Below, one piece after another: positions 1 through 9,213 of a stretch of 10,337 nt of DNA. Source of the stretch: Candidatus Altimarinota bacterium. GTDB taxonomy: Bacteria > Patescibacteriota > Gracilibacteria > BD1-5 > UBA2023. Positions within the stretch are counted from its first letter, which is position 1, and each line of letters begins with the position of its first letter. Below the pieces are notes generated by a model. That model did not search any database. It was not told where the DNA came from and saw only the letters and a list, made by a program, of their open reading frames with translations. The stretch spans positions 1 to 10,337 of the forward strand of contig DNKW01000036.1 in assembly GCA_003488655.1 (NCBI GenBank). Direction: 5' to 3'. A program made the position numbers and the translations under genes.

Positions 1-20
1 GATCCCTACCCGGCCCACCA
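1..20 (+). tRNA. 3' end of a tRNA, cut by the window edge
   Basis: The first 20 bases fit the end of a tRNA: the last part of the T-loop (GATC), the T-stem 3' strand CCTAC, a 7-base acceptor 3' strand CCGGCCC, discriminator A and an encoded CCA. A rho-independent terminator follows 13 bases later, as expected for a tRNA transcript. The matching 5' acceptor strand would be GGGCCGG, outside the window. The anticodon is not visible, so the amino acid cannot be assigned. Confidence 0.7.
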
Positions 21-33
21 TTTCGTAAAAAAC

Positions 34-63
34 ATCCCATCCGCTATGCGGGTGGGATTTTTT
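34..63 (+). terminator. Rho-independent terminator after the truncated tRNA
   Basis: An 11-bp stem (34-44 with 48-58, one T-G pair) closes a 3-base TAT loop and runs into a T tract (58-63). It lies directly downstream of the tRNA 3' end and most likely ends that transcript. Confidence 0.85.
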
Positions 64-85
64 GACGAAAAGTGTTCCTTGGATA

Positions 86-218
86 GTAGGGATCGAAGCC
101 GTAGCGACACTGATAAGTTCTTTGAAAAAGAACGAATCAGGGAAGATGTGCCTGGAATGGCACATCTTGTCGCAAGGAGTTTTTCTGAAGTGAAACAGAA
201 GAAAAAAGATCCCTACCC
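86..218 (+). repeat. Structured repeat element A behind the first tRNA
   Basis: The unit is bounded by an inverted pair, GTAGGGATC (86-94) and GATCCCTAC (208-216). The right copy also repeats the tRNA 3' end at 1-11 (GATCCCTACCC). Inside, GAAGCCGTAGCGACAC (95-110) and GTCGCAAGGAGTT (169-181) are identical to element B. A fold can be drawn by eye: GCGAC (104-108) pairs with GTCGC (169-173). This encloses a hairpin formed by 110-140 (CTGAT...ATCAG with inner GTTCTTT/AAAGAAC) and a perfect 10-bp hairpin 143-152/159-168 with loop TGGAAT. No protein is supported here. The strand is given by analogy with the tRNA; true transcription is unknown. Confidence 0.7.
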
Positions 219-232
219 TGCCAGAGAATCTT

Positions 233-329
233 TTTCAGAGAGTATATTATTTCTCGTTCATATGAAAGCAGTGCCTATTCTCATACTCATTAAGCTCATA
301 GGAACATCGAAATAAAATACTCTCTGAAA
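233..329. repeat. 97-bp unit bounded by 13-bp perfect inverted repeats
   Basis: TTTCAGAGAGTAT (233-245) is the exact reverse complement of ATACTCTCTGAAA (317-329). The 71-base interior is AT-rich, contains the small palindrome TTCATATGAA, and has no credible coding content. No target-site duplication is visible outside the repeats. It could be a small MITE-like element or a structured RNA; one copy in the window does not decide. Together with element A and the tRNA-Leu promoter it accounts for most of the gene-free stretch 64-426. Confidence 0.55.
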
Positions 330-381
330 CTATGAATAATGCAAGTATTGTATAGCTATAATAATAATTTCCCAAAAAAAT

Positions 382-408
382 TTGCTTTCCGTCCATTTTC
401 CATATACT
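382..408 (+). promoter_or_regulatory. Probable promoter of tRNA-Leu
   Basis: TTGCTT (382-387) and TATACT (403-408) are 15 bases apart; read as TTTGCT from 381 the spacer is 16. The -10 box ends 18 bases before the tRNA 5' end. The same TTGC-N17-TATA(A/C)T pattern appears before rpmF and the CNNM gene, which supports it. Confidence 0.5.
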
Positions 409-426
409 GTCCTCACATTCAAACCT

Positions 427-510
427 GCCCGGGTGGTGAAATGGTAGACACGACGGTCTTAGAAGCCGTTGCCTTACGGTGTGAGAGTTCAAGTCTCTCT
501 CCGGGCACCA
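427..510 (+). tRNA. tRNA-Leu (anticodon UAG)
   Basis: This 84-base class II tRNA has acceptor strands GCCCGGG and TCCGGGC (one G-T pair), discriminator A and an encoded CCA. The anticodon stem ACGGT/GCCGT holds the 7-base loop CTTAGAA, giving anticodon TAG, which reads CUN leucine codons. A long variable arm (around GCCTTACGGT) and the T-arm GAGAG-TTCAAGT-CTCTC follow, typical of tRNA-Leu. It has its own promoter and a terminator 12 bases downstream. Its 3' end is partly repeated at 712-760 in element B. Confidence 0.93.
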
Positions 511-522
511 AAAAAATATAAG

Positions 523-556
523 CCCTCTTCCGAAAGGAGGAGGGATTATTTTTTTT
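523..556 (+). terminator. Rho-independent terminator of tRNA-Leu
   Basis: A 9-bp stem (523-531 with 536-544, one T-G pair) with a GAAA tetraloop is followed by ATTA and an 8-base T tract (549-556). Confidence 0.85.
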
Positions 557-579
557 GTGCACGTTGAGGTGAGATACTT

Positions 580-760
580 GAAGCCGTAGCGACACCGACG
601 ACGAAGGAGTTAGGGAAAGTGTGCCTGGAATGGCACACTTCGTCGCAAGGAGTTCCCGGGACGGGACAAGTCTCTGGGGTGGATTGAGGTGATGGCATTG
701 AGCTCGAACATTGAGAGTTCAGCGAAACGATAGTGAAGCGAGTCGTCTCCGGGCACCAAA
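580..760 (+). repeat. Structured repeat element B with partial copy of the tRNA-Leu 3' end
   Basis: Shares with element A GAAGCCGTAGCGACAC (580-595), GTGCCTGGAATGGCAC (621-636) and GTCGCAAGGAGTT (642-654). The central hairpin is 9 bp (617-625/632-640); its outer stem differs from element A but remains paired. GCGAC (589-593) pairs with GTCGC (642-646). The right end carries two exact pieces of the tRNA-Leu 3' half: TGAGAGTTCA (712-721, as at 482-491) and TCTCCGGGCACCAAA (746-760, as at 498-512). Twenty-four bases separate them here, against six in the tRNA. The region does not fold as a complete tRNA. It fills the gene-free stretch between tRNA-Leu and rnpA. Confidence 0.7.
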
Positions 761-773
761 GAAAATCAAATAA

Positions 774-796
774 CTCACGCGAAAGCGTGGGTTTTT
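774..796. terminator. Terminator hairpin after element B, possibly bidirectional
   Basis: Stem CTCACGC/GCGTGGG (774-780, 785-791; one T-G pair) with a GAAA loop and TTTTT (792-796) forms a plus-strand terminator after the tRNA-like tail of element B. Read on the minus strand, the same hairpin lies 59 bases after the rnpA stop and is followed by TTATTTGATTTTC, so it may also end the rnpA transcript. Confidence 0.65.
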
Positions 797-854
797 GTGA
801 TTTTCTGAATAGCATAATTTTCTGAATATGAGGACATCATCCAAAGAAGACACA

Positions 855-1196: not shown

Positions 1197-1249
1197 ATTC
1201 AAAAGAAATTTAGAATCTCCTGAAAAATGATGAAGTTCGTATGAAAATC

Positions 1250-1322
1250 GAAGCCATAGCTCCCCCTTGTGGGGTTATTGAAGCGAAGCGTACTAAATGG
1301 TACGATGAGCGAGGAACGGAAG
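1250..1322 (+). repeat. Structured repeat element C, diverged relative of A and B
   Basis: It starts GAAGCCATAGC (1250-1260), against GAAGCCGTAGC in A and B. It contains a CCCC-CTTGT-GGGG hairpin (about 1263-1275). The central hairpin CGTAC-TAAATG-GTACG (1289-1304) resembles the GTGCC-TGGAAT-GGCAC hairpin of A and B, and GAGCGAGGAAC follows in the position of GTCGCAAGGAG. It lies in the rpmH-rnpA intergenic region. A further palindrome TGCGAA-A-TTCGCA follows at about 1330-1342. Homology to A and B is inferred from order and motifs, not from long identity. Confidence 0.45.
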
Positions 1323-1362
1323 ATTTGAGTGCGAAATTCGCATTTTGCAGAGATTCCTAAAA

Positions 1363-6104: not shown

Positions 6105-6167
6105 GTTTATAGCAACATCCTCGGATACGCCGTTGTAACCTCATTTGTATTCCCTTTCGGCGGTAAT

Positions 6168-6187
6168 CGAGAACCTGAGGGTTCTCG
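6168..6187. other. Perfect hairpin in the pilin-permease intergenic region
   Basis: CGAGAACC (6168-6175), TGAG, GGTTCTCG (6180-6187) is a perfect 8-bp stem with a tetraloop, followed by TGAGGAGC. A weaker stem CGCCG/CGGCG flanks it to the left. Downstream, ATGGTACGATGA (6203-6214) is identical to bases 1297-1308 in repeat C. No protein is supported in the 240-base gap 6105-6344. It may be a remote member of the structured repeat family or simply a local hairpin. Confidence 0.4.
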
Positions 6188-6344
6188 TGAGGAGCAGCAC
6201 GGATGGTACGATGACCACACCATTCTTACATACTCCCGGAAAGCGTACAAAATTGTAGAGAAAAAATCGAGGCAGATGCACGAGCAAAACAAGATGCTTT
6301 TTTATTATAAAGATTTTTAAGAAAAGTACACTTATTTTTAGGGA

Positions 6345-7565: not shown

Positions 7566-7592
7566 AAGAGTAATAAAAATTAATAATTAATT

Positions 7593-7714
7593 GTCATTCC
7601 CTCGAAGGAGGGAATCTTCCTCGTATTTTAAAATATTATCAGATATTAAACTATATATTTTATTAACCTTTCCCTTCGGGATATTCGGTAGATTCCCGTC
7701 TTCACGGGAATGAC
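7593..7714. repeat. REPIN-like inverted pair of ATTCCC-N8-GGGAAT palindromes
   Basis: The left hairpin ATTCCCTC-GAAG-GAGGGAAT (7596-7615) and right hairpin ATTCCCGT-CTTC-ACGGGAAT (7692-7711) are both perfect 8-bp stems. They are inverted with respect to each other: GTCATTCC begins the left unit (7593-7600) and its complement GGAATGAC ends the right one (7707-7714). The 76-base spacer is AT-rich with a small TCCC-TTC-GGGA hairpin near its right end. Two inverted palindromes about 100 bases apart is the layout of REPINs moved by RAYT (TnpA-REP) transposases. It lies between the dnaX stop and the permease start and may also fold in the dnaX mRNA tail. Confidence 0.65.
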
Positions 7715-7719
7715 GGATT

Positions 7720-9213
7720 CTAAAATATATCCGTTGCATCATCCGTAAGTGATGTTGTTTTTTGTTCTTGTTTCATACCCTTCCCTCATTTACGAATAGT
7801 GATCTGGTATCCCTCTCCGAAAAGAGCATCGAGTGTTTCCTGAAGAAAGAGTCGTACATCAGCGGAATCAAGTTTTTTGTGATTAAAATCACTATCCGGA
7901 TGTATAACAATCGTATTCCCCTCTTCGCTATAGGTTGCTACTCGAAGTCAGAGTCCGACAAAAGATCGCCTTGGGACAGTGCGTATATGTTCGATGAAGC
8001 GACTAAAATCAAAAGAATTTTTCGGCTGAATCAGAGACGTATTCTCTTCTGGTTTCAGGTGGGAAGAAATGGAAGTAATTTCCGACACCTCTTTCTCTTC
8101 GACCGAAACGGGGGAAACCATGGTTTTTTGTTCTTTTTTTGCGGGGAGAGAAGAGTCCTTATTTTCTTTCTGTTCCAATACTTTCGATCACATATGGATA
8201 ACCGAAGGGGTTACAATGCATCGAAACGTACTCGTTTCCAGGAGGAGAAATGGATCCGGGGAAAATTTCAATCGTCCATATACTCCTTCAAATATCTCGA
8301 AAAGTTCCGTATACGATCCAAATTCGACTTTCTTCAAGGACTCTTTCATGCGGTCTCGAAGAAAGAAGAGGAGTTGCTCAAGAAAGAGTCGTACATCGAG
8401 GCTCTTCTCTCGAAGAAAAGCGAGATTTTTGAGGGTTTTTTCTTGGTCTTTGGAAATAAGCGCCTCGATAAAGTCCGAGAGGAAATCGTCTCCAATGAGC
8501 TCCAGATTTTCCTCGATGTATTTTCGTTTCAAAACCCCTCCGACACTGTACTGTTCAAAAAGCGTTATAGCATCGCGGAGACCTCACTTCGCAAGTCTCG
8601 CGATAAGCTCCAATGCCGATTCTTCCACTTGAATATGCTCCGCATGAGCGATAAAATGAAGCCGTTCGATAATATCCTCGTTCTTGATGCGCTTAAAATC
8701 GTAGCGTTGCGAACGAGAGATAATCGTGTCGGGGATCTTGTGAATCTCCGTCGTGGCGAGGATGAACTTCACATGTTTCGGTGGTTCTTCCAGGGTTTTG
8801 AGAAGAGCGTTGAAAGCTCCCTTTGAAAGCATATGCACCTCATCGATGATGTACACCTTGTATGGCGCTTGGGTGGGCTGAAACTGGGCTCGTTCGATCA
8901 TATCTCGGATATTGTCGACTCCCGTATTGGAAGCAGCATCGATCTCGATGATGTCTAAAAGACTCCCGTTCTCCGCATCACGACAGTTCTGGCACTCTCC
9001 GCAAGGATTCCCGTCGACAGTGAGAGAGAGACAGTTTACCCCCTTGGCAAGTATTCGTGCCACGGTCGTCTTTCCCGTTCCGCGAGAACCGTGAAAAAGA
9101 TACGCCCCAACCGTGCGATTCTGCAAAAGAGCATTCTGCAAAACCTCCCGGACGAAGGTTTGTCCGAAAAGAGAATGAAAATCTTTGGGTCGATATTTTT
9201 GATAGAGTGCCAT
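7720..9213 (-). CDS. dnaX: DNA polymerase III subunit gamma/tau, four UGA glycines
   Basis: The 497-residue protein is the AAA+ motor of the replicative clamp loader. The start MALYQKYRPKDFHSLFGQ is typical of DnaX; Walker A is GSRGTGKTT (42-50), the zinc site is Cys61, 71, 74 and 77, Walker B is IIDEVHML (122-129), and sensor 1 lies at LATTEIHKIPDTIISRS (152-168; SRS replaces the more usual SRC). UGA codons fall at residues 210 (8584-8586, in AK-G-GLRDA, a conserved glycine region), 342 (8188-8190), 422 (7948-7950) and 476 (7786-7788). Residues about 340-410 are a charged linker and 410-475 a small C-terminal domain, so this is a short tau-like form. Read with code 25 it ends at UAG (7720-7722), 22 residues beyond the last UGA. 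An upstream in-frame ATG at 9273 would add 20 unconserved residues. No Shine-Dalgarno is seen. Confidence 0.95.

Follow-up and report, generated by a model that had tools for sequence, protein, structure and literature searches.

At the beginning of the window, by which is meant the whole stretch of DNA analysed (10,337 nt of contig DNKW01000036.1, assembly GCA_003488655.1, from a Candidatus Altimarinota bacterium), two tRNA genes are each followed on the forward strand by the same series of parts, here called a unit (Table 1). The DNA is of the Gracilibacteria type, and TGA is read as glycine in this chromosome, since the rnc-, dnaX-, CBS-transporter- and AI-2E-like genes (names given by eye) are fully open under code 25 only. 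Of the first tRNA only the last 20 nt, GATCCCTACCCGGCCCACCA, fall inside the window; they are identical to the end of tRNA-Tyr(GTA) in three relatives (genomes G001, G022 and G025), and the gene is therefore taken as tRNA-Tyr, which in these relatives also lies upstream of Leu(TAG), in the same order as in the window. A preliminary description, made from the letters alone, had reported behind each tRNA a terminator, a structured core and a copy of that tRNA's own 3' end; every one of these parts is found in the sequence, and the two cores, described there as alike, agree at 85% of positions across 52 nt and at 95% across a further 19 nt. What had been overlooked is that the tail of each tRNA is also present in antisense immediately 5' of its core, and that there is a third core-like palindrome (1250–1316) away from any tRNA.

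Table 1. Features of the two units and of the related palindrome (all on the forward strand)
Feature	Positions	Strand	Basis
tRNA-Tyr 3' end (R57–A76), serving as functional tail of unit 1; gene truncated at the window edge	1..20	+	identity to relatives
Trailer with intrinsic terminator (hairpin about 33–63), unit 1	21..85	+	sequence; tip of the long tail–antisense hairpin
Antisense copy of tRNA-Tyr T-arm, GTAGGGATCGAA	86..97	+	reverse complement of TTCGATCCCTAC
Core of unit 1, type B, stem and two inner hairpins	95..179	+	model R1, 88.6 bits (a training sequence of R1); fold
Optional third hairpin, unit 1	180..207	+	fold; similar hairpins in relatives by eye
Second tRNA-Tyr tail copy, from R57, decayed after 11 nt, GATCCCTACCC exact	208..218	+	sequence
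tRNA-Leu(TAG)	427..510	+	ARAGORN; Rfam RF00005
Trailer with intrinsic terminator, unit 2	511..556	+	sequence; Leu(TAG) trailer of G025 nearly the same
Antisense copy of tRNA-Leu tail, bulged, partly decayed, GTGCACGTTGAGGTGAGATACTTGAA	557..582	+	hairpin with 488–510
Core of unit 2, type B	580..652	+	model R1, 92.7 bits (a training sequence of R1)
Second tRNA-Leu tail copy, broken: CAAGTCTCT 667–675, GAGAGTTCA 713–721, TCTCCGGGCACCA 746–758	667..758	+	sequence
Terminator behind the second tail, unit 2	759..798	+	near-identical counterpart in G022
Palindrome flanked by rpmH and rnpA (gene names assigned by eye), core-like at 1250–1316	1209..1360	+	pattern match; fold

Because the antisense copy precedes the core, tail, terminator and antisense copy form one long hairpin in each window unit. 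In unit 1, the stretch 70–240 folds at z = −6.4, and the antisense copy pairs with 208–216 in one fold and with the first tail in another; in unit 2, the DNA fold of 487–582, terminator included, has a z of −8.5, and the stretch 560–800 folds at z = −2.7 only, with 3 of 200 shuffles equally good. The window's own tail copies are old, the second Tyr tail keeping 11 nt and the second Leu tail being broken, in a form similar to ACATTGAGAGTTCAGCGAAGCGAGTCGTCTCCGGGCACCA of G021; taken alone, the Leu copies are modest, their own-tail score being equalled or beaten by 2 of 34 other tails (sense) and 3 of 34 (antisense). In G022 a terminator near-identical to the last one of unit 2 stands directly behind tRNA-Leu(TAG), and no element is seen there; this genome shares the Tyr–Leu order, but its DNA past the Leu(TAG) terminator is unlike that of the window.

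Distribution and size of the family

A core pattern written from the window's own sequences has three matches in the window, none in 200 shuffles and none in the viral contigs searched, and in the genome collection it matches exactly one stretch, in Candidatus Gracilibacteria STA_21 (G001), where it also follows a tRNA-Leu, of a different anticodon, together with that tRNA's own tail. G001 gave 34 tRNA matches, and ARAGORN identified 34 distinct tRNA genes in the fetched stretches. Two covariance models, R1 for core type B (5 sequences) and R2 for core type A (7 sequences), which cross-match at some places, find cores at E ≤ 0.1 in 14 (R1) and 17 (R2) of the 27 genomes of the family of G001. 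Across the order, R1, with tighter filters and E ≤ 0.001, has matches in 13 of 77 genomes, all of which belong to this family, and across 379 genomes sampled from the phylum R2 matches G001 alone, under stricter filters and with few candidates scored per genome; since these wider matches stay within the family of G001, the element family is narrow at the search sensitivity used.

After weak rows and R2 rows at R1 places had been dropped, 80 places were examined (42 of 47 R1 rows and 38 of 57 R2 rows). A tRNA end lies at most 160 nt upstream in 58 of them, with 26 kinds of tRNA represented, and the exclusion of 10 places that had served to train the models, nine of them among the 58, leaves 49 of 70. 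The clustering of cores behind tRNAs proposed in the preliminary description is thus borne out; cores unlinked to tRNAs, or tails matching unrelated tRNAs equally well, were looked for and are not the general finding, yet 22 of the 80 places have no tRNA within 160 nt. Four of these 22 are second units of arrays, located 251–282 nt downstream of a tRNA; another three stand at contig ends, one of them with a truncated tRNA; the other 15 have no tRNA in their vicinity, though a tail can still be recognised in several. Other tRNA-distant elements may lie beyond islands. Elements with a Lys tail (L063, L097, L052 and L108) have no tRNA directly 5' and show a short ..CCACCA remnant instead, with a protein ORF between tRNA-Lys and the element at L052. 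The idea of a cargo between two Lys elements of G001, where radical-SAM-like and acetyltransferase-like ORFs are seen by eye, was set aside, no integrase being recognisable there.

The 32 units measured from CCA to CCA span 112–261 bp, which confirms the very small size suggested before and widens its range of about 200–250 bp, and units this short could hold fewer than 90 codons each. The description as protein-free agrees with this length and with the covariation of the core; in the window, an 89-aa ORF (46–315) crosses unit 1. Tandem arrays occur behind Leu(GAG) in G001 (type B, then A) and behind Leu(CAA) in G003 (type A, then A).

Insertion point at tRNA-His and other loci

In many genomes of the family tRNA-His precedes the same gene, presumably atpA, and the locus exists in both states, filled in G001, G024 and G025 and without insert in G021, G022, G023, G026 and others. 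In G023, CCA is followed by about 30 nt of AT-rich flank and the start codon; in G001 the element comes after the first CCA, and after the second CCA stands a flank that agrees almost letter for letter with that of G023, through the start codon into the next gene. The His tails of G021, G022, G023 and G026 differ from that of G001, and their loci are thus relatives and not the immediate ancestral state. At tRNA-Leu(TAA), the element is absent in G001 and present in G025 and G026.

As read from these alignments, the element lies between two copies of R57–A76. The native flank following the second tail at tRNA-His demonstrates, at the level of sequence, a tRNA gene split at the T-loop with its end regenerated, as by a genomic island; in the same terms, insertion between C56 and R57 with a restored tail gives the same product as the entry, behind CCA, of a unit whose far end is a tail copy. 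The earlier wording, an element that inserts next to tRNA genes, therefore holds for the association and has to be modified for the placement, which amounts to insertion within the T-loop. Judged by eye, most elements have a terminator 5' of them, and the trailer is without one at His, Leu(TAA), Arg and Gln(TTG).

The second tail and the antisense copy

In the aligned units the layout is evident as tRNA tail (R57 to CCA), trailer or terminator, antisense T-arm, structured core and second tail. Own and swapped tails were compared for 33 tRNAs of G001 and the window tRNA-Leu, a G001 tRNA with 1 nt behind it being dropped; the mean score is 8.65 for own versus 6.08 for swapped tails in sense and 7.62 versus 6.52 in antisense, and neither own mean is reached in 20,000 label permutations (n = 34), which upholds the claim that each tail copy matches its own tRNA. 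About 10 of the 34 tRNAs account for this excess, the remainder being without signal, and the own score is at least 9 in 9 of 34 (sense) and 10 of 34 (antisense). Among the 58 elements behind tRNAs, the own tail is outscored by none of 63 others in 47 for sense, 33 for antisense and 26 for both. Sense copies scoring at least 9 (n = 51) start at R57 in 31 cases and at C56 in 15, and the copy often ends at CCA; the bases just 5' of it vary, by eye. The identity of the antisense copy to its own tRNA is 0.62–0.96 at positions 57–65 and, beginning at about position 68, declines to that seen with swapped tRNAs (56 elements); misfits were counted at 69 of 423 positions within 57–65. A second tail that matches its tRNA at 20 of 20 positions is found in 27 of 58 elements; in the other 31 the match is no longer complete. 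The alternative of a decoy RNA that carries the tRNA tail, also raised in the preliminary description, finds no support in these imperfect copies, nor in the terminator that mostly precedes the element.

The first and second trailers share fewer than 7 leading bases in 27 of the 32 measured units, although the tails agree, which would not be expected of a simple local duplication; tail plus trailer are repeated at Leu(TAG) of G002 (17 nt of trailer) and at Ser of G003 (54 nt). The Cys element of G001 (L035) has a chimeric tail, its antisense copy and second T-arm fitting each other and not tRNA-Cys, and its last 11 nt being those of Cys, which suggests that arms can travel with the unit, brought from elsewhere. 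In G006, at Leu(TAG) (L165), a third core class is seen by eye, with tail, terminator and antisense copy repeated almost exactly on either side of the core.

Refitting of the arms and signs of mobility

The fit of the arms was followed in 16 pairs of the same core type, with cores at least 84% identical and each second tail matching its own tRNA at 13/20 or more. The tRNA tails of these pairs differ at 64 positions, and at 52 of them each member's second tail tracks its own tRNA, an agreement that is favoured by the entry threshold for the second tail; the antisense copy, which that threshold does not favour, does so at 23 of 33 differing positions within 57–65. Some pairs are the same tRNA in different genomes (His; Lys, at 0.99), where the arms keep up with the tRNA, and in the orthologous His elements the second tail tracks its own tRNA at every differing position; other pairs are different tRNAs of one genome (Arg and Glu in G015, Gln and Met in G013). 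Near-identical cores thus occur at different tRNAs with arms that fit the local tRNA, as the pairwise comparisons establish, and we infer that the elements move.

The nearest core is found in the same genome at another tRNA in 11 of 42 cases (two of which are the neighbouring Arg pair of G001), in another genome at the same tRNA in 12, and in neither situation in 19. The mean core identity within a genome across tRNAs versus that between genomes is 0.665 versus 0.667 for type A and 0.636 versus 0.626 for type B; the own genome is not favoured by these means. Taken together, the tRNA-His loci with and without insert, the 58 of 80 cores behind tRNAs and the arms that track the tRNA support the proposal of a very small element that regenerates the tRNA 3' end.

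Structure of the core

In core B (40 sequences), 94.1% of cells are paired versus 72.2% in shuffled and 32–40% in slid alignments, and 19 of 22 pairs have changes on both sides; in core A (21 distinct of 25 sequences), the corresponding values are 93.2% versus 83.0% and 28–56%, with 15 of 20 pairs changed on both sides. Both alignments were fitted to the models and are hence biased towards them; with this bias in mind, the covariation of the cores is established by comparison of the sequences. Tail, trailer and antisense copy fold together in 55 of 56 elements, with 8–21 tail–antisense pairs and the terminator, if any, at the tip. The counts of G.T versus A.C cells in the helices (24 versus 41 in core B, 11 versus 12 in core A) do not distinguish RNA from single-stranded DNA, and most of the A.C cells are probably supplied by two poorly paired columns. 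Only tRNA scores above the gathering cut-off in the 15 sources scanned with Rfam, and no group I or II intron or ribozyme match appears there up to E ≤ 1 (E ≤ 0.5 for part of the sources). A longer core is present at Leu(TAG) in G023 (L152) and at Gln in G025 (L068), where about 80 nt forming an additional hairpin separate RTAG from the first inner hairpin; a likeness of this variant to the group I intron S element was considered and abandoned, as it had no support from Rfam and the stretch looks by eye like a long hairpin.

Related palindromes away from tRNAs

The palindrome at 1209–1360 lies in a stretch (1200–1375) that folds at z = −4.2, and no tRNA tail is recognised in it by eye; similar ones occur near tRNAs in relatives (L154, L129 and L014; by eye). 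The tRNA elements may have arisen from palindromes of this type. Two further regions of the window are rich in palindromes: 6110–6260, behind the terminator of a pilin-like gene, contains GGATGGTACGATG, which resembles a core hairpin, and 7585–7735 contains the inverted repeats TCATTCCC...GGGAATGA, a common kind of repeat-like palindrome.

Candidate mobilising enzymes

Enzymes were searched in the 27 family genomes at E ≤ 1e-5; these are metagenome-assembled genomes (MAGs), possibly incomplete, so that absences are provisional. Reverse transcriptase (RVT_1) is found in 12 of 27, and none at this threshold in G001, among the genomes richest in elements (a MAG that may be incomplete), nor in G023 and G026, which have four R1 matches each. 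The Y1 transposase (PF01797) is found in 4 of 27, and not in G001 or G025. Tyrosine recombinases, in a count that pools IntI with other types, are present in 23 of 27, and the sole match of G001 looks chromosomal because, by eye, a close relative exists in G025; serine recombinases occur in 19 of 27 genomes, with three matches in G001. By presence across the 27 genomes, none of the four fits cleanly as the mobiliser. Large serine recombinase ORFs adjoin tRNA-Gln and tRNA-Phe in G001 and lie directly 5' of two elements in G012 (L196, L198, L197); they are probably ordinary islands using the same tRNA ends, and such islands may explain elements far from their tRNA.

Discussion

The filled genes would consist of tRNA positions 1–56, a restored tail 57–76, trailer or terminator, antisense T-arm, core, the displaced original tail 57–76 and the native flank. 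It is reasonably probable, in our judgement, that these are mobile cassettes of very small size in which no protein gene is recognised, seated at the tRNA T-loop and copied by template switching or gene conversion, a reading that we rank before an enzyme acting in trans and, in third place, a functional RNA. The copying mechanism itself, template switching at a universal T-loop word, is a guess. The core would be copied between tRNA loci by replication-linked template switching or gene conversion, with the help of folded single strands: the new strand would fold back at the terminator hairpin and copy its own tail into the antisense arm, whose end would lie at the complement of the invariant TTC in the T-loop; the strand would then switch at the universal word GAA into a core elsewhere and switch back at R57 of the target. 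With such template switching, the arms would be local copies and no dedicated enzyme would be needed; the Cys arms of G001, which fit each other but not tRNA-Cys, weaken this choice. The divergent trailers of 27 of 32 units, the 22 cores with no tRNA within 160 nt, the mean core identities that do not favour the own genome, the differing His tails of the loci without insert, and the serine recombinases of 19 genomes, which could act in trans, also weigh against this reading. By eye, units at solitary tRNAs usually have a terminator and those at operon tRNAs (His, Leu(TAA)) have none, a distribution that would keep the expression of the tRNA and its neighbour intact.

Integration of a folded, att-like cassette at the T-loop by a tyrosine or serine recombinase in trans (Xer-like, or the large serine integrase of an island), with the 20-nt tail as the identity block, as for genomic islands, is unlikely, even though the regenerated gene and displaced fragment are the signature of islands in tRNA genes (PMC4383910), tandem arrays exist, and both recombinase types are common, with serine ORFs beside tRNAs or elements in G001 and G012; a single enzyme would have to serve 26 kinds of tRNA with arms that differ by tRNA, the units measured leave no room for an integrase gene, the sole tyrosine recombinase of G001 looks chromosomal, and the bases just 5' of the second tail vary. 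A working RNA of the host, either a T-loop intron or a read-through switch, is doubtful to a higher degree. In read-through RNA, the tail–terminator–antisense hairpin would hide the first tail, positions 1–56 would fold with the second tail, and the antisense copy would be the complement of the joined ends, in the manner of an intron guide. This agrees with the geometry, the pairing, the covariation of the core, the 27 second tails that are perfect, those of His that track their tRNA at every differing position, and the operon tRNAs without terminator; the 31 imperfect second tails, the decay of both window units, the patchy presence in the family (14 and 17 of 27 genomes for R1 and R2), the terminator 5' of most elements and the lack of any Rfam ribozyme or intron match speak against it. 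A mobile T-loop intron of a new kind, that is, a small structured RNA entering between C56 and R57 with a target-derived antisense guide, a spare tail and often its own terminator, is regarded as improbable; if it were true, the spare tail would keep the host alive, and a core that copies the T-arm of its target could be directed to almost any tRNA.

RNA-mediated copying by a reverse transcriptase would suit second copies that often end at CCA, and RVT_1 occurs in 12 of 27 genomes, but it was not found in the element-rich G001, nor in G023 and G026, and this route is very improbable. Hardly any credence is left for ordinary REP- or MITE-like palindromes that pile up behind tRNA terminators, their arm matches reflecting a general similarity of T-arms: there is a related palindrome away from tRNAs in the window, and similar ones are seen elsewhere by eye, but own-tail matches beat swapped ones, 58 of 80 cores lie behind tRNAs, and Y1 was not found in G001 or G025. 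As a full account it is refuted, and the cores may descend from such palindromes.

Relation to known systems and significance

Tycheposons carry partial tRNA copies at the far end of the insert and are gene-bearing and far larger; the elements described here share the partial tRNA copy at the far end and differ in their far smaller size and in having no recognised gene. With REP and MITE sequences they share short, hairpin-rich, repeated units and kindred palindromes elsewhere in these genomes, but they are tied to the tRNA T-loop, have arms copied from the target, and occur in G001 and G025, where no Y1 was found. They recall group I introns in tRNA genes by a guide-like stretch complementary to the sequences flanking the junction, but have no recognised catalytic core, carry a spare functional tail and a terminator, and do not lie in the anticodon loop. 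Like integron cassettes with attC hairpins, they are folded hairpin cassettes that form arrays; unlike these, they have no recognised gene and their target is a tRNA. In islands within tRNA genes, the gene is regenerated and a displaced fragment marks the far end (Islander, PMC4383910), and both features are found here, the fragment being decayed in many copies; the split target gene, the insert that restores its 3' end, the displaced fragment at the far end and the tandem arrays are shared with such islands, but the measured elements, of 112–261 bp, are too short for an integrase or a multigene unit, and they have an antisense tail copy and arms refitted at 26 kinds of tRNA. No such element was found in a search of open-licence PMC papers.

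The novelty rests on the arms refitted to many targets and would shrink on proof of an integrase in trans. As a rule, an integrase binds an element in a tRNA gene to its target; in the present case an insert of about 110–260 bp, with none inside, occupies 26 kinds of tRNA, and its arms are mostly copies of the tRNA upstream of it. If its mobility were confirmed, this would be a new way of changing target, in bacteria with very small genomes, and the 27 genomes of the family, each with a few dozen tRNA loci that are filled or empty, constitute a natural experiment for the rule by which the elements are copied.
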